Part shown: positions 427 through 44,543 of the stretch, piece by piece | Numbering within the stretch: position 1 is the first letter of the stretch | Layout of the letters: the number at the start of each line of letters is the position of its first letter | From: a virus | DNA: 57,878 bases | Direction: 5' to 3' (one strand) | Virus record (IMG/VR): IMGVR_UViG_3300025141_000108 | Span: 1 to 57,878 of that record | The notes under the pieces: generated by a model | The model's database searches: none | What the model was told of the DNA's origin: nothing | Seen by the model: the letters and a program-made list of their open reading frames with translations, nothing else | Translations under genes and position numbers: made by a program

Positions 427-456
427 TTGACAAAACTTGTCAACTTATGGTATACT
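427..456 (+). promoter_or_regulatory. Early promoter with operator-like inverted repeat
   Basis: TTGACA at 427-432, an 18-base spacer, then TATACT at 451-456 preceded by TG (extended -10). The -35 box is the left arm of a perfect 7-3-7 inverted repeat, TTGACAAAACTTGTCAA (427-443), so a repressor bound there would cover the -35 box. It drives the genes from 502 to 1055. Confidence 0.8.
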
Positions 457-1055: not shown

Positions 1056-1080
1056 AAAATAGGTTCACTCAAAAACAAAG

Positions 1081-1112
1081 ATGCCCAATCGAAAGGTTGG
1101 GTATTTTTTTGT
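1081..1112 (+). terminator. Rho-independent terminator of the first early operon
   Basis: GCCCAATCGAAAGGTTGGG forms a six-to-seven base-pair stem, followed by TATTTTTTT. The same loop and stem core recur in opposite orientation at 3888-3907. Confidence 0.85.
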
Positions 1113-1117
1113 CTTCT

Positions 1118-1225
1118 TCACCAGCATGGGACCGGCAGCATCACCGGAAAAAACAGCTCCACACGATATATCGTAGAGCAGACCATGCGGGAAAAATACT
1201 GGAGGAAGGCTGGATAAATTCTGGA
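1118..1225 (+). repeat. Composite intergenic element E1 (CGATATATCG)
   Basis: Core palindrome CGATATATCG at 1164-1173, AGACC (GGTCT reversed) at 1180-1184, and flanking words CACCAGC, GGCAGC, CACCGG, CAGCTCC and GGCTGG. It lies between the terminator at 1081-1112 and the start of the next unit (1292). It is noticeably richer in G and C than the surrounding genes and no convincing gene covers it. Confidence 0.7.
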
Positions 1226-1291
1226 GAAATTCTAAGTAGACCTTTTTTACGAGGTGTGATAAAATATAAGTATAAGGAGAAAAGGAAACCA

Positions 1292-1378
1292 ATGATTATT
1301 AAACTACTCAAAAAGTTTAAACTACCAATATATGTTTTGGGCATAATTGGATTAACTATTATTAATGTTATTTATTAG
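1292..1378 (+). CDS. 28-residue single-pass membrane peptide
   Basis: Reads MIIKLLKKFKLPIYVLGIIG and continues with a hydrophobic helix to NVIY. A basic N-terminus followed by about 18 apolar residues predicts one membrane helix with its N-terminus in the cytoplasm. The ribosome site AAGGAGAAAAGG is present, though spaced slightly long. Function unknown. It stands just ahead of the 38-residue gene at 1388. Confidence 0.6.
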   Translation: MIIKLLKKFKLPIYVLGIIGLTIINVIY

Positions 1379-1387
1379 GAGGCAACA

Positions 1388-1504
1388 ATGACAATGCAAA
1401 ATGATTTAGATTATGACGAACTCTATGAAAACCTAAAAGAAGAATTAGGAAGAGAACCCAATGAAGATGAGATTAATGAAAGATTTGAAAACTCGTCTAA
1501 TTAG
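1388..1504 (+). CDS. 38-residue acidic protein
   Basis: Reads MTMQNDLDYDELYENLKEEL and ends EINERFENSSN. The ribosome site TAGGAGG is strong. Highly acidic and helical in character, with no cysteines. Very small acidic early phage proteins often act as DNA mimics or bind host enzymes; that is only a possibility here. Its start follows the stop of the 28-residue gene by nine bases. Confidence 0.6.
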   Translation: MTMQNDLDYDELYENLKEELGREPNEDEINERFENSSN

Positions 1505-1507
1505 GTC

Positions 1508-1537
1508 TTGACAATATTTGACAACTTATGATATACT
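1508..1537 (+). promoter_or_regulatory. Early promoter with TTGACAA direct repeat
   Basis: TTGACA at 1508-1513, an 18-base spacer containing a second TTGACAA, and TATACT at 1532-1537 preceded by TG. Same architecture as the promoters at 427 and 1816. Confidence 0.8.
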
Positions 1538-1567
1538 TATTAATATAAAGAAAAAAGAAAGATAATC

Positions 1568-1804
1568 ATGACAAAAAGAAAAGCCCTTAAAGATATAAAA
1601 TTTCACATTGATATTAATAATGGGTATTTAAATGGTTTATTAAATAGAAATGCCCAGAGATATTATACTAAAGAAATGCAAGATAAATTTTTTAAAGATA
1701 TTAATAAAATTATTGAACAAGCAAAACTGACTTATAATGATTTAATAAGTTATGGAATTATTGGCAAAGATAATTCATTTAATATTAAAACTTTGCATAA
1801 GTAA
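1568..1804 (+). CDS. Small early protein of unknown function
   Basis: 78 residues, basic, beginning MTKRKALKDIKFHIDINNGY. No motif recognised. Alone in its transcription unit, between the promoters at 1508 and 1816. The ribosome site GAAAGATAATC is weaker than its neighbours'. The lysine/asparagine-rich make-up reflects the high AT content of the region. Confidence 0.65.
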   Translation: MTKRKALKDIKFHIDINNGYLNGLLNRNAQRYYTKEMQDKFFKDINKIIEQAKLTYNDLISYGIIGKDNSFNIKTLHK

Positions 1805-1815
1805 TAAAAAAACAC

Positions 1816-1845
1816 TTGACAATATTTGACAAGGTATGTTATAAT
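1816..1845 (+). promoter_or_regulatory. Early promoter with TTGACAA direct repeat
   Basis: TTGACA at 1816-1821, an 18-base spacer holding a second TTGACAA, then TATAAT at 1840-1845 preceded by TG. The closest match to the bacterial consensus in the window; drives 1886-2303. Confidence 0.85.
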
Positions 1846-1885
1846 ATAGATATAGGAAATAAAAAAAGTCATAAGGAGAATAAAA

Positions 1886-2167
1886 ATGGCAATCAAGATT
1901 TCAAGAAAAGATGGAGTGGAACTACTAAAGAACTCTAATGGATTAATGGTAGGAACAGACTTCATAAAGAAAAACGGAGACGATAGAAAATTGAATGGTA
2001 GATTAGGTGTTAAGAAACACCTTAAAGGTGGAGAGTTAAAATACAATCCATCTGACTATGGATTAATGACTATCTTCGATGTTCAGAAAAAAGAATACCG
2101 AATGGTAAACTTAGAAACATTATATGCAATGAGAATTCAAGGAGTAGAATATGAAATCGTTGACTAG
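1886..2167 (+). CDS. Small early protein, possible SH3-like beta-barrel
   Basis: 93 residues after TAAGGAG. The second half (GVKKHLKGGELKYNPSDYGL, then MTIFDVQKKEYRMVNLETL) alternates short hydrophobic strands with turns, which suggests a small beta-barrel. From memory, similar phage proteins are annotated as SH3 beta-barrel fold proteins; I hold this only as a suggestion. Expressed from the strongest early promoter. It overlaps the next gene by 17 bases. Confidence 0.75.
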   Translation: MAIKISRKDGVELLKNSNGLMVGTDFIKKNGDDRKLNGRLGVKKHLKGGELKYNPSDYGLMTIFDVQKKEYRMVNLETLYAMRIQGVEYEIVD

Positions 2168-2303
2168 AATATGGATAGGTAAAATAAAAAATGGGGTACA
2201 TGAATTAACTCATGTACCTACCGAAACCATTTTCACAAGTATTGAAGATGCAATTATCTTTGATAAAATGTGGAAAAGTGAACAACAAGACAAAATGAAT
2301 TAA
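2151..2303 (+). CDS. 50-residue protein of unknown function
   Basis: Reads MKSLTRIWIGKIKNGVHELT and ends KSEQQDKMN. The ribosome site AAGGAGTAGAAT lies inside the end of the preceding gene. No motif recognised. It is the last plus-strand gene, followed by the terminator at 2331. Confidence 0.65.
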   Translation: MKSLTRIWIGKIKNGVHELTHVPTETIFTSIEDAIIFDKMWKSEQQDKMN

Positions 2304-2330
2304 CCTCATTTTTTATCCTCCAAAAATTAT

Positions 2331-2363
2331 CCTCCTAGATTAATTTCTAGGGGGATTTTTTTT
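2331..2363 (+). terminator. Rho-independent terminator ending the plus-strand genes
   Basis: CCTCCTAGA, a short loop, TTCTAGGGGG, then A and eight T. Ends the 1886-2303 unit. Confidence 0.85.
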
Positions 2364-2397
2364 ACCCCAGTTTTCGGCAAAGACAAGAGTCAGATTT

Positions 2398-2495
2398 TTT
2401 TGGTCCAGCATGGTCTTCCTACGATATATCGTACAACCTTATCCAGCTGAGTTTTGTGACCGAAGTGTGACTGGGGTTCTCCAGCTGAGTCGGTA
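2398..2495 (+). repeat. Composite intergenic element E2 (CGATATATCG)
   Basis: Core CGATATATCG at 2422-2431 inside the 14-base palindrome TACGATATATCGTA; GGTCT at 2412-2416; CCAGCAT just before it; and two copies of TCCAGCTGAGT about 30 bases apart downstream. It follows the plus-strand terminator and sits in the convergent region. Confidence 0.7.
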
Positions 2496-2696
2496 TTTTT
2501 TAAGGGTCGGTAAAACTCGTAATGAAATAACTAGGAAGATATAAACAATTTGGAATAGGGTGGAATAGTGGGGGGAACAATACCTACCTCTCAATCCCTC
2601 CACACTAGATGAATGCCTAGGGTCTATGGGGAAGTAGTCGAAGGGTAAGAAGTCTAAGGGTCTTACCGAAGGGTCTTAAACGAAAGAAACCAAGAC
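2496..2696. other. Gene-free convergent region with short repeats
   Basis: No open frame with a ribosome site on either strand. It holds repeated AAGGGT words (TCGAAGGGT, CTAAGGGTCTTA, CGAAGGGTCTTA), an imperfect inverted repeat GGGTAAGA/TCTTACC, and a G-rich stretch AGTGGGGGGAA. Plus-strand genes end at 2303 and minus-strand genes end at 2744, so both operons point into it. This could be an origin, packaging or partition site; the sequence alone does not decide. Confidence 0.45.
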
Positions 2697-2698
2697 AC

Positions 2699-2728
2699 AA
2701 AAAAAGACACCCTCCTAAGAGAGTGCCT
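2699..2728 (-). terminator. Rho-independent terminator
   Basis: On the minus strand GGCACTCTC, loop TTAG, GAGGGTGTC, then seven T. Ends the 2744-2911 gene. Confidence 0.85.
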
Positions 2729-2743
2729 CTTTATGATTGGTTC

Positions 2744-2911
2744 TTATGGGGCTTGAAACTTATATCCCATGCGTTCTAACCGTTTAGGAATAACCACTTC
2801 GCCATTACACTTTAGACAACACCTGCCGTTTGTAACGGGTTGTGCGTTATGTCCTTGTGTCCAACCACCGAACTCTACGCCAATCTCATTATTACAAATA
2901 TCGCAATTCAT
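2744..2911 (-). CDS. 55-residue zinc-ribbon protein
   Basis: Starts MNCDICNNEIGVEFGGWTQG. Two cysteine pairs, C-x2-C at the N-terminus and CC-x2-C in the middle (GRCCLKCNGE), fit one zinc site. The ribosome site is AAGGAGG. It is the only gene between its promoter (2961-2990) and its terminator (2699-2728), so it is a monocistronic unit. Function unknown. Confidence 0.75.
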   Translation of the reverse strand: MNCDICNNEIGVEFGGWTQGHNAQPVTNGRCCLKCNGEVVIPKRLERMGYKFQAP

Positions 2912-2960
2912 AATATCCTCCTTGTTTGTTGTTCCTAACTTGTAGGAACTTGTTTCTTTA

Positions 2961-2990
2961 ATACTACACTGGTAGTAAGTCTTTTGTCAA
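2961..2990 (-). promoter_or_regulatory. Early promoter, minus strand
   Basis: TTGACA (2985-2990, reversed), 18-base spacer, TAGTAT (2961-2966). Upstream is a second copy, giving TTGGCAAGATTTGACAA; here the -35 box is the inner copy, unlike the plus-strand promoters. Confidence 0.75.
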
Positions 2991-3020
2991 ATCTTGCCAA
3001 ATCAAAAAGGTCTACGTTGA

Positions 3021-3206
3021 TTAGTCCCATTTATATCGAAATGATTTTCGAGCTATCACGTTCTTCCCCATAGCATTGCTTACTTCTTCCTGAATGTCGG
3101 CTGGGATAGATGTTCCTTGGTAACTACAAGCCATACACTTTCTTTCCTCGTGTGCGTACATCTTTGTGTAACTCTTACTATTACATCGTGGGCATTGGTT
3201 GTTCAT
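3021..3206 (-). CDS. 61-residue zinc-ribbon protein
   Basis: Begins MNNQCPRCNSKSYTKMYAHE, then RKCMACSYQG: a classic C-x2-C, C-x2-C zinc ribbon. The C-terminal half is polar (IQEEVSNAMGKNVIARKSFR). Ribosome site AAAGGAG. No terminator is obvious after it, so transcripts may continue into 2744-2911. Confidence 0.75.
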   Translation of the reverse strand: MNNQCPRCNSKSYTKMYAHEERKCMACSYQGTSIPADIQEEVSNAMGKNVIARKSFRYKWD

Positions 3207-3228
3207 ATTTATTCTCCTTTCGCCACTT

Positions 3229-3258
3229 GTTATACTTTCATTATATCATGAGTGTCAA
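3229..3258 (-). promoter_or_regulatory. Early promoter, minus strand
   Basis: TTGACA (3253-3258), 18-base spacer, TATAAC (3229-3234). A better -10 sequence, TATAAT at 3240-3245, has no well-placed -35. Downstream is AACAAGTGG, a word shared with other minus-strand promoters. Confidence 0.6.
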
Positions 3259-3277
3259 CCTAACAAGACTCGTGTTA

Positions 3278-3396
3278 AGTTATCCAGCAAAGGTGTGGCA
3301 GGAAAGAACCCAGAAGTCACCAGAGCGATATATCGTATAGACCTATTTTCTGGTGATGCCGGTGAAGTTTGCTGGTGAATACCAAGATGCTGGGGG
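3278..3396 (-). repeat. Composite intergenic element E3 (CGATATATCG)
   Basis: Core CGATATATCG at 3326-3335 and GGTCT reversed at 3339-3343. Read on the minus strand it carries CACCAGCA, TTCACCGGCATCACCAG and, past the core, CTGGTGAC and TTTGCTGGA. It lies between the terminator at 3398-3432 and the promoter at 3229-3258. E1 shares the word TTCACCAGCA. Confidence 0.7.
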
Positions 3397-3397
3397 A

Positions 3398-3432
3398 ATA
3401 AAAAAATCCCCTACCAACTTAATGGTAGAGGA
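3398..3432 (-). terminator. Rho-independent terminator
   Basis: On the minus strand CCTCTACCA, loop TTAAG, TTGGTAGGGG, then A and seven T. Ends the 3461-3622 unit. Confidence 0.85.
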
Positions 3433-3460
3433 CTTCGTTTTTATGAGTCGGTAAATTTCT

Positions 3461-3622
3461 TTACATATCTATATTGAACTCTTTAGGTTTCTTTACATAG
3501 AACTTAGCAATGTTTCCTATTGTTTCTATAACCGTTTCCTCAGTAATCTTGCCTCCATCGAATTCATCTAGTAGGCTTCGCAAGTCCTCTGAGAGAGTCG
3601 TTGTGATTTCATCCTGTGCCAT
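3461..3622 (-). CDS. 53-residue protein of unknown function
   Basis: Reads MAQDEITTTLSEDLRSLLDE and ends KEFNIDM. Acidic and helical, with no cysteines. The ribosome site AAGGAGAATAAG precedes ATG 3622. It is alone between its promoter (3694-3723) and its terminator. Confidence 0.7.
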   Translation of the reverse strand: MAQDEITTTLSEDLRSLLDEFDGGKITEETVIETIGNIAKFYVKKPKEFNIDM

Positions 3623-3693
3623 CTTATTCTCCTTAGTATTACCCTATTTAATTAAACTCCCCAAGAGGGCAACCTTGAGGAGTATACATATAT

Positions 3694-3723
3694 AGAATAA
3701 CATAATGATTAGACTTTTGTCAA
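3694..3723 (-). promoter_or_regulatory. Early promoter, minus strand
   Basis: TTGACA (3718-3723), 18-base spacer, TATTCT (3694-3699) preceded by TG. Upstream copy gives TTGGCAAGACTTGACAA, almost identical to the repeat at the 2961 promoter. Confidence 0.7.
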
Positions 3724-3759
3724 GTCTTGCCAAGGTCTTATACAAATTTAATTTATCTG

Positions 3760-3876
3760 CCCAGCCGTTGGTACAGGAATCGAATGCTGGAGGAAGACCA
3801 TAGTTCTCAGCTGGAAAAGGTCTGCAGAGCGATATATCGTAGAACCCCCCTCCTGCAAAATTTTACAGGGGGTGAT
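3760..3876 (+). repeat. Composite intergenic element E4 (CGATATATCG)
   Basis: Core CGATATATCG at 3830-3839, GGTCT at 3819-3823, with CCAGCCG, ATGCTGGAGG and CAGCTGG before it and a hairpin-capable CCCCCCTCCTG/CAGGGGG after it. It lies between the terminator of the 3878-4090 RNA and the promoter at 3694-3723. Confidence 0.7.
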
Positions 3877-3907
3877 AAAAAAAGAAACCCCAACCTTTCG
3901 ATTGGGG
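3877..3907 (-). terminator. Rho-independent terminator of RNA-A
   Basis: On the minus strand CCCCAATCGAAAGGTTGGGG then TTTCTTTTTTT. The stem core matches the plus-strand terminator at 1081. Confidence 0.9.
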
Positions 3908-4090
3908 CTTCCCGTGTTTGATAGTTTCCTATCTTACACAATCCAAGGAGAATACATGGATTTGTGGTGAACTCACTTCCTGTACTACATGGGGGTTATT
4001 TCCCCTCGCTTAGTGTGAGCCTCTTCTCTTGTATTATAGGATGCTTATAAACCCACCCCACAGGAATCAGACCATTATTACTTCCTTGAT
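3878..4090 (-). ncRNA. Probable structured non-coding RNA (RNA-A), about 210 nt
   Basis: A promoter (4097-4124) and a strong terminator (3877-3907) bound about 210 bases with no real open frame; the only ATG with a good ribosome site reads Met-Val-stop. Hairpins seen by eye, 5' to 3' on the minus strand: a GCTCAC/GTGAGT stem enclosing GGGG-AAATAA-CCCC (3971-4020); CACAAATCC/GGATTGTG (3937-3966); a GATAG-GAAA-CTATC stem with a GNRA loop (3920-3933); and the terminator. It is not upstream of a gene it could control as a riboswitch. I do not recognise the RNA class. Confidence 0.55.
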
Positions 4091-4096
4091 TATTCT

Positions 4097-4124
4097 ATTA
4101 TAACATTTCTTTCCTTTGTGTCAA
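4097..4124 (-). promoter_or_regulatory. Promoter of RNA-A
   Basis: TTGACA (4119-4124), 16-base spacer, TATAAT (4097-4102). Consensus -10 and -35 boxes; start expected near 4090. Confidence 0.8.
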
Positions 4125-4166
4125 GGGGTTGGAACTACCTTTCCTTCCCCTCGCCACTCGGTTGTT

Positions 4167-4853
4167 CTATCGGTTCGCTTCAAAGAATGCTTTCGCAAAT
4201 CCTTGAGGTGTGATACTTCGATAGTACTTCCTTCCTAAATCTTTCCCACTAGGAGTCGTAAATTCTCCCTTGTCTATTTTATTCTTATAGTACAAACCAC
4301 TCATTGGTTCTTTGATTCTTTCCCCTTTTAATAAAGGTGAACCCTCGAACATGTTTATCTTTGATTTATCATAAGATTGTTTTGTGGGTTTGTTAAACCA
4401 TCCCCATAAATAAGTGTACTTAGAATAGTAATCACCAAATTCATAAGGGTGAAATTTGAAGAGAGGTTCTCCCAAAAACTTCTTTAGTTTACCTACGGGA
4501 TTTTCCAATGCAAACCATTGTGGTTGAAGTGCATATGCAATTCTAAAACATGCATCCACGACTCCTATGCCTTCCACGATTTGTTGGTCACTTCTCTTCC
4601 ATGCATTTCCTGCAATCGAAAAGTAAGTACAATCTGGGGCGGCAAGAATGCCTCGAACTCTCCCTTGATACTTCTTTATATCTATCCATTCTCCATTGCC
4701 TCGTGGTTCGTCTGAAGATTGTGATGGAAATAATCTTACATCATATTGTGGAAAAGTAATTGGTATAACTTCATACTCTCCACTTTCGATATAAGGAATT
4801 TCCCAACTTCCACTACCACTACAAAGGGATAGGATAATTGGTTTCTCATCCAT
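4167..4853 (-). CDS. Phage DNA cytosine methyltransferase-like protein
   Basis: 228 residues. Motif I-like LSLCSGSGSWEIP lies at residues 9-20, a motif IV-like APDCTYFS at 72-79 with a candidate nucleophile Cys75, and ENPVG at 117-121. This pattern (PxC-T-x-S plus ENPVG) is that of short phage cytosine-methyltransferase-like proteins, which often lack a clear target-recognition domain. Activity could be methylation or a related modification at C5 of pyrimidines. It differs strongly from the full-length C5 methyltransferase at 35499. Single-gene unit with its own promoter at 4896-4924. Confidence 0.7.
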   Translation of the reverse strand: MDEKPIILSLCSGSGSWEIPYIESGEYEVIPITFPQYDVRLFPSQSSDEPRGNGEWIDIKKYQGRVRGILAAPDCTYFSIAGNAWKRSDQQIVEGIGVVDACFRIAYALQPQWFALENPVGKLKKFLGEPLFKFHPYEFGDYYSKYTYLWGWFNKPTKQSYDKSKINMFEGSPLLKGERIKEPMSGLYYKNKIDKGEFTTPSGKDLGRKYYRSITPQGFAKAFFEANR

Positions 4854-4895
4854 ATTATTTTCTCCTTGTTGTATGGTTTTATACCTTACATTATT

Positions 4896-4924
4896 AGTAT
4901 AACATTTTTAACCGATTGTGTCAA
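4896..4924 (-). promoter_or_regulatory. Promoter of the methyltransferase-like gene
   Basis: TTGACA (4919-4924), 17-base spacer, TATACT (4896-4901). The -35 box lies inside the end of the upstream gene. Confidence 0.8.
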
Positions 4925-5123
4925 TATCATACTTCCATCCTTTTGGGGCTTTGACATCTCCATTTTCAATCATTGCATGTGCGATTCTACCAAATCTTCC
5001 TTGTAAAGACCATGCTAATCCTGTATCTACAAGATGTTGCCATGCTTCCTTAAGTTCTTCTTCAGTACCTTCTATTATTCCTTCCGCTAGTTCAACGGCA
5101 GTTATATTATCCATCTTAATCAT
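4908..5123 (-). CDS. Small phage protein with WxLQGxFGR motif
   Basis: 71 residues. The core EAWQHLVDTGLAWSLQGRFG resembles, from memory, small proteins seen in many phages that have a conserved W-x-LQG-x-FGR stretch; no function is known to me. The start ATG overlaps the stop of the upstream gene at 5123, implying coupled translation. No membrane segment or cysteines. Confidence 0.7.
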   Translation of the reverse strand: MIKMDNITAVELAEGIIEGTEEELKEAWQHLVDTGLAWSLQGRFGRIAHAMIENGDVKAPKGWKYDIDTIG

Positions 5124-5305
5124 TAAACTTCCTCCTCACAAACATCCCCTTTGTTCAACCAAGTTCCATGTTCACACTTGTCTATGATTTCCCAGTTGTC
5201 CATGTCGGCTCTACGAAGACCATTTTCTATAAGTTGTTCTAGTTCTTCATGGGACCCACTAATTGTGATTTCACTATATTCCACATCTTGATTACATGTT
5301 GCCAT
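5123..5305 (-). CDS. Small acidic protein of unknown function
   Basis: 60 residues, MATCNQDVEYSEITISGSHE, then EELEQLIENGLRR and a C-terminal half with Cys, His and Trp (DKCEHGTWLNKGDVCEEEV). Four cysteines and one histidine could hold a metal but the spacing is not canonical. First gene of a two-gene operon with 4908-5123; ribosome site AAGGAG. Confidence 0.65.
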   Translation of the reverse strand: MATCNQDVEYSEITISGSHEELEQLIENGLRRADMDNWEIIDKCEHGTWLNKGDVCEEEV

Positions 5306-5338
5306 ATCTTTTTCTCCTTGTAACTATTATATTAATAT

Positions 5339-5365
5339 ATTATAACAGTTGGTAAAAAAAGTCAA
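5339..5365 (-). promoter_or_regulatory. Promoter of the 5305-4908 operon
   Basis: TTGACT (5360-5365), a short 15-base spacer containing ACCAACTG, and TATAAT (5339-5344). The spacer word resembles AACAACTG in the other minus-strand promoters. Confidence 0.65.
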
Positions 5366-5373
5366 GGGGGTAT

Positions 5374-5432
5374 AAAAAAGAAACCAGCTATGTTCACTAC
5401 TAAGATTATTATTAGTGACTTTCATAACTGGT
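5374..5432 (-). terminator. Long two-part terminator hairpin of RNA-B
   Basis: On the minus strand an outer stem ACCAG-TATG/CATA-CTGGT encloses a second stem TCACTA/TAGTGA, followed by TTTCTTTTTT. Confidence 0.8.
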
Positions 5433-5618
5433 CTCTAGTGTGGAATGTTTTAAGAAGGTGCAATGCATCGTAAATCATTCCTTCCTTTGCTTCCTTGTAT
5501 CTCTTTCCCTGCGCTGAGAAGAGATGGTTCCACTACAGCAAAAGCAGTTTAATGACATAATGTATTAAGAGAAGCTTTCTCATCTTCAATCCCATACTAT
5601 TACTTAGGTCAGTTCCAT
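5374..5618 (-). ncRNA. Probable non-coding RNA or tiny coding unit (RNA-B), about 245 nt
   Basis: Bounded by a consensus promoter (5625-5653) and a terminator (5374-5432). No open frame has the strong ribosome site found elsewhere. One frame reads a 20-codon ORF (MGLKMRKLLL...), then TAG, then 36 protein-like codons (GKRYKEAKEGMIYDALHL); the overlapping frame offers a GTG-started 28-codon ORF. Hairpins include GAGAA/TTCTC and ATCTCTT/AAGAGAT. I favour an RNA, but a small gene broken by an amber codon remains possible. Confidence 0.4.
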
Positions 5619-5624
5619 ATTATT

Positions 5625-5653
5625 ATTATACTACACTTTTTAGTTTTTGTCAA
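5625..5653 (-). promoter_or_regulatory. Promoter of RNA-B
   Basis: TTGACA (5648-5653), exactly 17 bases, TATAAT (5625-5630): a full consensus promoter. Confidence 0.85.
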
Positions 5654-5716
5654 CTCCCGCATCAAGGTCTAAAAATACCCCCGTACGATATATCGTAGAA
5701 CGCTATTTTTCAGGAC
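5654..5716 (+). repeat. Composite intergenic element E5 (CGATATATCG)
   Basis: Core CGATATATCG at 5686-5695 within TACGATATATCGTA; GGTCT at 5666-5670, 15 bases away rather than 3-6; CCCGCATCAA before it resembles CCCGCAT beside GGTCT in E1. It lacks the CCAGC words and is the most reduced copy. Lies between the terminator at 5717 and the RNA-B promoter. Confidence 0.65.
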
Positions 5717-5750
5717 AAAAAAAATCACCTACTAAATTAATAATAGGTGA
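5717..5750 (-). terminator. Rho-independent terminator
   Basis: On the minus strand TCACCTAT, AT-rich loop, TAGTAGGTGA, then eight T. Ends the 5804-6556 gene. Confidence 0.85.
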
Positions 5751-5803
5751 CCTTGTTTTTTATCGGTTGGGGAATTTACTTCCTTGCTTCCTTCCCCTTC
5801 CTT

Positions 5804-6587: not shown

Positions 6588-6616
6588 ATTTTATCAGTTG
6601 TTAAAATATTTGTCAA
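6588..6616 (-). promoter_or_regulatory. Promoter of the GP88-like gene
   Basis: TTGACA (6611-6616), 17-base spacer ending TTAACAACTGA, TAAAAT (6588-6593). The spacer motif TTAACAANTG recurs at 10265 and, more loosely, at 9110 and 5339. Confidence 0.8.
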
Positions 6617-39762: not shown

Positions 39763-40632
39763 TTAAAAAATTGTTTTATTATTTGTAATTACGTTATTTA
39801 GTACTTTAATGTCTTGTATTTCTTGAACATCTTTGTATTTTTTAGGTAACTGTAAATATGATAACATGAAACGCTTAGACATGTCAACTGTAGCTTTTGA
39901 TATTCCTTTTTGCCCAGCCTCATCATTATCTAATGCTAAGACTACTTCGTCTGGATGTAAAGAACTTATTAAATCCATTTGTGTTGGGGATATTGATGCC
40001 CCTAAAATAGCGACTGCAGAATATCCATTTTGTTGTAACCACATACAATCTAATGCACCTTCAACTACAAATAAAGTTTCAGCACTATAAATTTGATTTA
40101 TTCCAAACAAACTATGAGACTTTGCAAACCCATATGAAAATAAATATTTAGGTATTGCAGCCCTTCTTCGGTTAATCCAACCTAGAATTTCATCTTTGGT
40201 ATTTTCAACCGGAATTAAAAAATCATCATAATTATTTGACTTACATCCCCATTGAGCAACACAATCCCTTGAAAACCCTCGTTTGTATATCCAATGATTA
40301 GTTGGTACGTCTTTTAAATTCTCTGGTTCTTTAACAGGTTTATCTTCTAAATCTTCTACTTTTATTTCATCTTCAAAAAGACTCAAATCTAATTCCCAAG
40401 TCTTTTCTTCTAATTCAGTATCAAGTTCTTTCCATGGTTTGCCTGTATATTTGTAGATAAAGTATTTTAAGCTACCTTGCCCACAACCTGCAAAACATAT
40501 CCAAACACCCTTATCAAGATTAATTGAGCAACTTTGTCTCCCATCCTCGTGAAAAGGGCAATGGATAATAAACTGATTAGTATTTGGAACATCTATCCCA
40601 TAATCAGTCAAGACTGAAAACCAATCTACCAT
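39763..40632 (-). CDS. DNA primase, zinc finger plus Toprim
   Basis: 289 residues. The CHC2-type finger uses Cys25, His28, Cys46 and Cys50 (HCPFHEDG... WICFAGCGQG); the Toprim domain has VVEGALDC with Glu191 and ALDNDEAG with Asp235 and Asp237. It lacks a helicase domain, which is on the separate DnaB-like gene at 40839. It synthesises RNA primers. Confidence 0.88.
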   Translation of the reverse strand: MVDWFSVLTDYGIDVPNTNQFIIHCPFHEDGRQSCSINLDKGVWICFAGCGQGSLKYFIYKYTGKPWKELDTELEEKTWELDLSLFEDEIKVEDLEDKPVKEPENLKDVPTNHWIYKRGFSRDCVAQWGCKSNNYDDFLIPVENTKDEILGWINRRRAAIPKYLFSYGFAKSHSLFGINQIYSAETLFVVEGALDCMWLQQNGYSAVAILGASISPTQMDLISSLHPDEVVLALDNDEAGQKGISKATVDMSKRFMLSYLQLPKKYKDVQEIQDIKVLNNVITNNKTIF

Positions 40633-40829
40633 TATTGGTATCGGTCTTTCTTGTCTTTTCTTAGAAATACAACAATCTCATTCTTATTACCATTGGTGTC
40701 ATATACATATCCATCAGATATGTTACCAACTGTAATACTAATGGGTTTGCGTTTCCCATATTTTCCTTTTAGGGTTTTCACTACAACATTAGAGTCATCA
40801 CCCTTTAAAAATTCAAATATATTCATCAT
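40632..40829 (-). CDS. Small protein of unknown function
   Basis: 65 residues, MMNIFEFLKGDDSNVVVKTL, beta-like in the middle (PISITVGNISDGYVYD). Sits between helicase and primase; its stop overlaps the primase start. Might be a replication accessory protein. Confidence 0.65.
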   Translation of the reverse strand: MMNIFEFLKGDDSNVVVKTLKGKYGKRKPISITVGNISDGYVYDTNGNKNEIVVFLRKDKKDRYQ

Positions 40830-42324: not shown

Positions 42325-42763
42325 TTTTTTTCTCTTGTACCCATTCCTTTAATATTTGTAAAATTTCTTTTCGTCTTTTTCTTTTGGATGCTGTAGGCAA
42401 CCATGTAGAATCTAAAAACATATACTCCCTAAATAATTTTTTAGTTGATGGATTACCATAATATTTTATAAACCAATAAATTTCTGGATTATGCGGGATA
42501 AGATAATATTTTATTCCTGCTGTAAAATAAGGTACATTTACTGTCCTATCATTATTCCTAATACAATTAGATATAGCACATGCAACACTGCCACTACCAA
42601 ACTCCTCAACAACTTCTTTCATTTTCTTCATCTCATTGCCTATAAACCCAACACCCTTATATTCTACACCATATTTCTCTTTGTATAAATTATTAAATAA
42701 GGAATACAAATCTTTGGCATTTAAATTATTTATATCTAAAAAATTCATCGGATAACTTTTCAA
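42299..42763 (-). CDS. Protein of unknown function next to helicase
   Basis: 154 residues, or 149 if the better-looking MNFLDINN start at 42748 is used. Helical with a central GVGFIGNEMKKMKEVVEEFG and SVACAISNCI, and a basic tail (KRKRRKEILQILKEW). Size, basic tail and position upstream of the helicase gene would suit a helicase loader, but there is no motif to prove it. Confidence 0.65.
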   Translation of the reverse strand: MKSYPMNFLDINNLNAKDLYSLFNNLYKEKYGVEYKGVGFIGNEMKKMKEVVEEFGSGSVACAISNCIRNNDRTVNVPYFTAGIKYYLIPHNPEIYWFIKYYGNPSTKKLFREYMFLDSTWLPTASKRKRRKEILQILKEWVQEKKNETRKRVT

Positions 42764-43283
42764 GCTTTTCTCTTAGGGATTGTCTAACTTTGTAGGCACT
42801 CTCCCCTAAATCTTCTGTGATTTCTTCCATCGTTAAACCTTCTAATTTTAATTTAAGAAAAAATTTTTCTTTATCATCTAATCCTTGAGCATCAATAAAT
42901 AACTTTGACTCTATCTCTGCAATTAAATTTTCGGGTCTATCATCAATAAGTGCATAAGCAATTGATTGTGGAAGTTGTCCAGACTCTGGAAATACATTAT
43001 CTAAACTTCTTTGGTCTGGTTGTCTTTGGGCTTTACTGATTAAAGTACGGATTGTGTTTACTAAAGATGTGTGGAGATATGTGTGGAACACAATTCCTCT
43101 GTTTTCATCGAAGGCTTTCGCTGCTTTTATTAAAGATATTCGTAGTTCTTGGGCAACATCTTCTCTATCTAATCCTAATATAAATGAATTAGACACCATT
43201 TTTTGTATTTTAGGATTCCATTGAGTGACTAAATCATCATTTATTTCCATTATTTTTTGTTCTCTTACGTAATGTAGCCTCAT
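42726..43283 (-). CDS. Sigma-70-family-like sigma factor
   Basis: 185 residues, or 174 from MEINDD at 43250. Region 2-like segment: LDREDVAQELRISLIKAAKA followed by FDENRGIVFHTYLHTSLVNT (the core-binding and -10 recognition helices). Region 4-like helix-turn-helix near the C-terminus: LTMEEITEDLGESAYKVRQS. Regions 1, 3 and a linker are missing, as in compact phage sigma factors such as T4 gp55, which is of similar size. It may direct host RNA polymerase to the AGTATAATAA boxes in front of late genes. Confidence 0.8.
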   Translation of the reverse strand: MRLHYVREQKIMEINDDLVTQWNPKIQKMVSNSFILGLDREDVAQELRISLIKAAKAFDENRGIVFHTYLHTSLVNTIRTLISKAQRQPDQRSLDNVFPESGQLPQSIAYALIDDRPENLIAEIESKLFIDAQGLDDKEKFFLKLKLEGLTMEEITEDLGESAYKVRQSLREKLEKLSDEFFRYK

Positions 43284-44138: not shown

Positions 44139-44167
44139 AGTATGTCAAAAAAATCAATTTTTGTCAA
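44139..44167 (-). promoter_or_regulatory. Promoter ahead of hsp20 and the replication block
   Basis: TTGACA (44162-44167), 17-base spacer, CATACT (44139-44144) preceded by TG. A second TTGACA lies inside the spacer end. This is the only convincing sigma-70-type promoter I see for the genes from hsp20 down to the terminase. Confidence 0.65.
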
Positions 44168-44543
44168 CCTCTCTTCTACCTTTATAATAACAAGTAGTTG
44201 AACAATATATTTTATTATACCCTTCTCTATACTTTTGTATAATTTGTCCTCGCTTTCTATAAAAGGGAACATGACAAGTGGCACAATTAACTTTTACATT
44301 ATAATAATTAAATCTACACTTACCTTTATGTATTTTTGTCTTACTTATTTCTTTACAGTATAAACAATGAGTATCTTTACTTCTCTTCGCCCTAATTGTT
44401 GGGACCCCATTTTGGTTTAATACTTTAAATATGTATTGACGAGAAACACTAAAGTTTTCCCCAATCTGTTCTAAAGTATCATGTGGGTTATCATATCTAT
44501 GTTGTATGATTTTAGAAGTCTTCAACTGACGCTTTTTCTTCAT
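44154..44543 (-). CDS. HTH and zinc-finger protein, HNH-related
   Basis: 129 residues. Helix-turn-helix DTLEQIGENFSVSRQYIFKV near residues 22-41, then three Cys groups: CLYCKE, CATCHVPFYRK and YCSTTCYYKGR. The last two match the zinc finger found before HNH domains in homing endonucleases, but no HNH core follows. It may regulate transcription or be a shortened endonuclease. It partly covers the hsp20 promoter region at its 3' end. Confidence 0.65.
   Translation of the reverse strand: MKKKRQLKTSKIIQHRYDNPHDTLEQIGENFSVSRQYIFKVLNQNGVPTIRAKRSKDTHCLYCKEISKTKIHKGKCRFNYYNVKVNCATCHVPFYRKRGQIIQKYREGYNKIYCSTTCYYKGRREVDKN

Follow-up and report, generated by a model that had tools for sequence, protein, structure and literature searches.

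Three described systems come closest to the repeated intergenic palindrome CGATATATCG found in the early region of the tailed phage considered here. The first are the PeSL (promoter early - stem-loop) cassettes of T4-type phages, which combine an early promoter with a stem-loop, recur between genes and lie in a region of intense gene shuffling (PMC4503421, PMC3950731). The second are the stoperators of Cluster A mycobacteriophages (L5, Bxb1), which are bound by repressor and block elongation; they are 13–14 bp long with no dyad symmetry, occur 20–30 times per genome in a genome-wide distribution and are mostly oriented with transcription (PMC6550527). The third are the intergenic repeats of HF1-group haloviruses, which sit at key positions on the transcription map, together with the TATA-like box and inverted repeat of HGTV-1 (PMC7230728, PMC3950731). 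The stretch analysed here (IMG/VR record IMGVR_UViG_3300025141_000108, 57,878 nt, hereafter the window) is the terminal 57,878 nt of the 81,555-nt contig IMGVR_UViG_3300025131_000017, contig position being window position plus 23,677. The contig was found to hold six elements (E0–E5) built on the palindrome, which we tentatively read as a boundary cassette punctuating the early region, the palindrome itself being a predicted protein site with stoperator-like insulation.

The preliminary description of the window reported CGATATATCG at positions 1164, 2422, 3326, 3830 and 5686, always in gene-free gaps, and all five places proved exact. There is no further full copy in the window, where the sole one-mismatch site (46841) lies inside a late gene and shuffles gave a mean of 0.46 sites within at most one mismatch. 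A sixth copy, E0, was located at contig position 23543-23552, about 130 nt to the left of window base 1. Six copies thus compare with 0.01–0.02 (about 0.016) expected per 81.5 kb under Markov models, the comparison with base composition that had been proposed. Every copy comes from one phage species, as chance or an assembly artefact might have it; however, with 0.016 copies expected and the window and 81.5-kb records differing by only 2 substitutions across their shared first 6.3 kb, so that two sequence versions carry E1–E5, this explanation is extremely improbable. The contig holds six copies of the inner 8-mer GATATATC, all of them within the elements, against 1.7–2.5 copies expected elsewhere. 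All cores lie within gene-free gaps, and the open reading frames (ORFs) that cross some of them are short and have no family matches or partners.

When oriented by a neighbouring AGACC word, the elements read TACGATATATCGTA, which is complete in E2 (2420-2433) and E5 (5684-5697) and has one or two outer mismatches in E0, E1, E3 and E4. The next-best sites differ from this 14-mer at two or three positions and all lie in predicted genes. No weaker version was found in the gaps; the distribution is therefore all-or-none, which is what strict recognition of a site would give. The flanks are far less uniform. Those of E0 and E1 share 87% identity over 45 nt and E0, E1 and E2 can be aligned past the core, but most other pairs cannot, and E3–E5 are barely alignable outside the core and AGACC. 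An unchanged core within diverging flanks indicates selection on the core. It also disfavours decaying, functionless mobile repeats of the miniature inverted-repeat transposable element (MITE) kind: the many copies, both orientations and restriction to this phage would suit such repeats, but the core is never mutated even where the flanks are unrecognisable, no common element ends or target duplications are apparent in the aligned gaps, and no copies occur away from early-region boundaries, which makes this origin very unlikely.

The core is accompanied by partner words. AGACC/GGTCT, previously noted beside each of five copies, occurs no more than 20 bp away from each of the six cores (at most three of six in 2,000 shuffles), generally 3–6 bp from the 10-bp core and once, in E5, at 15 bp. 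A longer tail, AGACC-N0-4-ATGYKGGA, is present in E0, E1, E2 and E5, and its four occurrences in the contig all adjoin a core. Enrichment was judged against shuffles of the same flanks. CCAGC/GCTGG words are enriched about ten-fold (12 seen, 1.3 expected) and CTGGA/TCCAG about four-fold (10 seen, 2.7 expected), but the CACCGG word of the preliminary description fared poorly, with two seen and as many in 21 of 1,000 shuffles. The parts of E1–E5 are as follows, in window coordinates.

1077..1108, plus strand: E1 intrinsic terminator with hairpin CCCAATCGAAAGGTTGGG (terminator scans)
1164..1173, no strand: E1 core palindrome CGATATATCG (ACGATATATCGT), exact match
1180..1192, plus strand: E1 tail AGACCATGCGGGA
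1237..1265, plus strand: E1 downstream promoter-like site, extended -10, weak -35 TAGACC
2329..2356, plus strand: E2 terminator
2404..2416, minus strand: E2 tail AGACCATGCTGGA
2422..2431, no strand: E2 core, within the full 14-mer, in the gap between convergent units
2701..2732, minus strand: terminator of the minus-strand unit facing E2, with no element of its own
3240..3266, minus strand: E3 downstream promoter-like site, recognised by eye: TTGTTA-15-TATAAT, the -10 preceded by ATGA
3326..3335, no strand: E3 core
3339..3343, plus strand: E3 AGACC word, 3 bp from core
3403..3436, minus strand: E3 terminator, of a minus-strand unit
3694..3723, minus strand: E4 downstream promoter TTGACA-18-TATTCT
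3819..3823, minus strand: E4 AGACC word, 6 bp from core
3830..3839, no strand: E4 core
3882..3913, minus strand: E4 terminator, with the 18-nt hairpin of E1
5625..5653, minus strand: E5 downstream promoter TTGACA-17-TATAAT
5655..5670, minus strand: E5 tail AGACCTTGATGCGGGA, 15 bp from core
5686..5695, no strand: E5 core, within the full 14-mer
5721..5754, minus strand: E5 terminator, three G-C pairs, weaker

Each element had been described as lying after the terminator of one unit or before the promoter of the next. This can be sharpened, as all six cores follow a terminator and five of them also precede a promoter. Along the direction in which the preceding unit is transcribed, the distance from intrinsic terminator to core is 46 bp in E0, 56 in E1, 65 in E2, 68 in E3, 42 in E4 and 25 in E5. 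A strict scan found nine gap terminators in the contig and recovered five of the six belonging to elements, with the core 42–68 bp downstream, whereas only 14% of gap positions in the local region lie 10–70 bp after a terminator; that of E5 was missed and was reported by a second scan. The terminators are themselves related: E1 and E4 have an identical 18-nt hairpin that occurs nowhere else, those of E3 and E5 show 76% similarity across 46 nt, and those of E0 and E1 have AAGATGCCC and GGGTATTTTTTT in common.

On the promoter side, a sigma70-type promoter-like site follows every element except E2, which lies between convergent units with no adjoining promoter. The cores are separate from the -35 and -10 sequences, as previously stated. 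Operator or activator sites serving only the next early promoter would agree with five cores lying 33–107 bp upstream of a sigma70-like promoter, but these distances are irregular, E2 has no promoter to serve and most early promoters have no core (e.g., those at 427, 1508, 1816, 2990, 4124 and 6616), so that a role of this kind alone appears improbable.

The elements appear to be specific to this phage. Of the 26 records to which polymerase or methyltransferase relatives led, only the phage's own contig had the exact core. The composite CGATATATCGTA-N1-6-AGACCATG was found in no other record among 2.9 million viral contigs and matched once in 257 Gb of prokaryote genomes (a Ruminococcus metagenome-assembled genome), which is about chance level. 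For the ten papers containing the string, neither title nor abstract presents the palindrome as an element of phages. Contigs 95–98% identical to this phage stop short of the early region, and only one relative that covers it, contig G014, emerged when polymerase, methyltransferase, Gp88, NadA and DNA patterns were used as probes. The edges of the region are kept there (NadA, at 76% amino acid identity, and Gp88), but the genes in between differ, and so does a repeated word on the promoter side. The preliminary description had looked to relatives for the element at the same boundaries. It is indeed lacking in G014, but the early genes there are almost entirely different, which leaves no equivalent boundaries, and the absence therefore points to a phage-specific family and not to chance. 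A regulator that changes together with its site would suit sites found in one phage only and in a region that changes fast. In G014 itself, two gaps (L147:1280-1361 and 5220-5300) carry ATGATATATATCAT or GATATATC, an ATATAT-centred (near-)palindrome, with repeated AAATTCCAAAC words; these are possibly a counterpart element, although a pair of copies from a single genome is not enough to establish one. No comparable repeated palindrome was found in the examined stretches of two distant relatives (L276 and L277).

This variability bears on another explanation, in which the terminator-palindrome-promoter blocks would act as recombination linkers, that is, short homologies or a recombinase target for swapping early cassettes, with a palindrome that is not regulatory. 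A linker role has been proposed for PeSLs in T4-like phages. Variability in this genome falls in the early region, both a UvsX-like recombinase and a RuvC-like resolvase are encoded, and the cassettes look mosaic, with E1 having the terminator of E4 and the tail of E0 and E2. However, linker homology should span the whole length, whereas perfect identity here is limited to 10–14 bp, which is short for homologous recombination, and no site-specific recombinase was found among the scanned proteins. Linkers are accordingly rather unlikely.

Compared with the described systems, the elements most resemble PeSLs, in that a stem-loop terminator (six of six) and an early promoter or promoter-like site (five of six) form a repeated unit, here within a hypervariable region of small early ORFs. 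They differ in the 10-14-bp palindrome and AGACC tail set between terminator and promoter, in the promoterless E2, and in that cassette exchange among relatives was not encountered, the composite being confined to this contig and absent from G014. As regards a T4-type background the gene content is mixed, with a UvsX-like recombinase, DnaB-like helicase and primase on one side and a PolA-type polymerase and distant terminase on the other. Stoperators are likewise several short sites outside promoters, and an analogous action is proposed for the elements; but these are six palindromic sites of mixed orientation, restricted to 5.8 kb of the early region, and since stoperators are asymmetric, 20–30 in number and genome-wide, the elements are not members of that family. 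The haloviruses and HGTV-1 similarly have repeats between genes at key positions on the transcription map; theirs, however, are long AT-rich promoter elements conserved in relatives, in contrast to the short, phage-specific elements found here in G+C-richer gaps and away from the -35 and -10. Judged from these sequence comparisons, the cassette may work like a T4 PeSL with an added palindromic site of stoperator-like action, while some defining features of each family fail (sharing between relatives for PeSLs; asymmetry, high number and genome-wide spread for stoperators).

The proposed cassette would consist, in order, of an intrinsic terminator, 25–68 bp of spacing, the palindrome TACGATATATCGTA with its oriented AGACC(ATGYKGGA) tail and, in five of six cases, a host sigma70-type early promoter. 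It may have been duplicated and mixed as small early genes were acquired. The palindrome would be the strict site of a dimeric DNA-binding protein of phage or host, and the CCAGC/CTGGA words secondary contacts. Bound at the unit border, the protein would most likely be a roadblock for RNA polymerase that has passed the terminator, and would also silence the early promoter that follows when the early phase of expression is due to close. E2, being convergent and promoterless, fits a border or roadblock function better than promoter activation. A roadblock or insulator dimer would cover the dyad, the phage specificity, the place after a terminator, the optional promoter, the mixed orientation and E2. 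The family of binding sites suggested at the outset is therefore kept as the best reading, on the strength of a perfect palindrome, fixed partner words, intergenic position and a conserved core, but the stoperators and mobile repeats offered with it are not. A bolder and quite doubtful version is that a phage-encoded dimer of no recognised family binds the exact palindrome behind nearly every major early terminator, first insulating and then silencing blocks of genes, and that the site travels with its terminator as a cassette upon recruitment of new early genes.

Several observations weigh against the boundary cassette. No convincing helix-turn-helix (HTH) or ribbon-helix-helix (RHH) regulator was recognised by Pfam or PHROGs among approximately 87 phage proteins, the set to which all protein scans here refer, although two sub-threshold hints were obtained (window 44154-44543 and 40632-40829). 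The core-to-promoter spacing ranges over 33–107 bp, and some early terminators and promoters, such as the terminator at 2701-2732 and the promoter at 6616, have no element. Tail orientation relative to transcription is mixed, with E0, E1, E4 and E5 one way and E2 and E3 opposite. G014, the sole comparable relative, lacks the palindrome.

The genome setting is that of a tailed phage with PolA-type polymerase, DnaB-like helicase, primase, UvsX-like recombinase, ribonucleotide reductase (RNR) and terminase, in addition to a sigma70-family protein (window 42726-43283, minus strand) and the RuvC-like resolvase. No close named phage was found for the contig. As no integrase or repressor was recognised among the scanned proteins, and from its related contigs, the phage is inferred to be marine and lytic. 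Nearly all genes are on the minus strand, with a plus-strand block at ~17.5–26.3 kb of the contig, and 15 of 16 TTGACA-type promoter matches in gaps fall within 17.5–31 kb, the early region. The elements occupy 5.8 of 81.5 kb near the strand switch of transcription, and the gaps around their cores tend to a higher G+C content than the remainder (0.38–0.45 in several).

This clustering of a palindromic core and repeated words near the strand switch could also suggest dispersed sites for a replication initiator or a centromere protein. N15-like phages are known to have centromere sites of this scattered kind. Against such a role, no Rep initiator or ParA/ParB was found among the proteins scanned, the G+C-richer gaps hold no AT-rich unwinding element, GC skew tracks gene strand with no origin signal there, and strict placement after terminators would not be expected; replication initiation or partition is thus unlikely. 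An iteron origin was rejected on similar grounds, namely gaps that are G+C-rich for this genome and the lack of an initiator among the scanned proteins.

Other candidates were also discarded. A structured RNA is not supported, as there is no credible Rfam match and fold z-scores of the six elements run from about 0 to -3.3 with no common structure; only for E1 and E3 was the fold somewhat better than that of shuffled sequence. With no consistent RNA fold, the site is read as DNA. A coding function was dismissed, as the ORFs across the cores have no partners and E0 and E1 differ by frame-shifting indels. The CCAGC/GCTGG words do not indicate a Chi-like role, GCTGGTGG occurring six times in the contig and never within elements. 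A likeness to the NrdR box, an AT-rich palindrome, was considered given the RNR gene, and was dropped as there are no paired boxes and none near that gene. Nor are the cores late or sigma-factor promoters: several late gaps contain a TAGTATAATA-type word, itself a candidate late promoter, without the core.

Further features of the early region were noted. Several early promoters repeat TTGACAA/TTGTCAA inside the -35/-10 spacer, followed by an extended -10, as in TTGACAATATTTGACAACTTATGATATACT (window 427-456, 1508-1537 and 1816-1845; L143:4939-4968 and 5630-5659), and these repeats are perhaps a second operator family. Beside E5 and E4, minus-strand stretches of ~200 nt running from promoter to terminator (window 5384-5612 and 3880-4095) have no convincing ORF and are possible small RNAs. 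Strand-biased gaps are found in both early regions, G-rich in this phage (L143:4690-4930) and CTTCC-rich in G014 (L147:1010-1200). A ~130-nt non-coding stretch after a -10-like TATACT, with hairpin GCTGTCCTAGTG...CATTAGGGCAGT, is highly conserved between the phage and the otherwise diverged G014 (L143:4500-4640, contig ~22,500-22,640, outside the window; L146:18225-18375); it has no Rfam match and is possibly a new phage small RNA. The quinolinate synthase NadA (PF02445, E 1.8e-95) is an auxiliary gene of NAD synthesis in the phage and relatives (L143:3183-4364 and L146:16914-18131, both minus strand). GATC is absent from the contig (~202 expected per 81.5 kb) and from eleven loci of eight related contigs (L144–L154, ~470 expected), and GGCC, GCGC and CGCG are nearly absent from the contig as well. 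GATC is near-normal in the distant relatives L276 and L277. This pattern suggests strong avoidance of restriction throughout the phage group.

Phage early regions abound in uncharacterised small genes that are gained and lost. How each newcomer obtains its own start and stop signals without disturbing its neighbours is poorly understood beyond T4-like phages, and the site described here comes from a group of marine phages to which no named phage is close. As a countable, exact boundary site, it offers a DNA bait for the protein that would organise the early region, and a marker of cassette borders in metagenomic phages.

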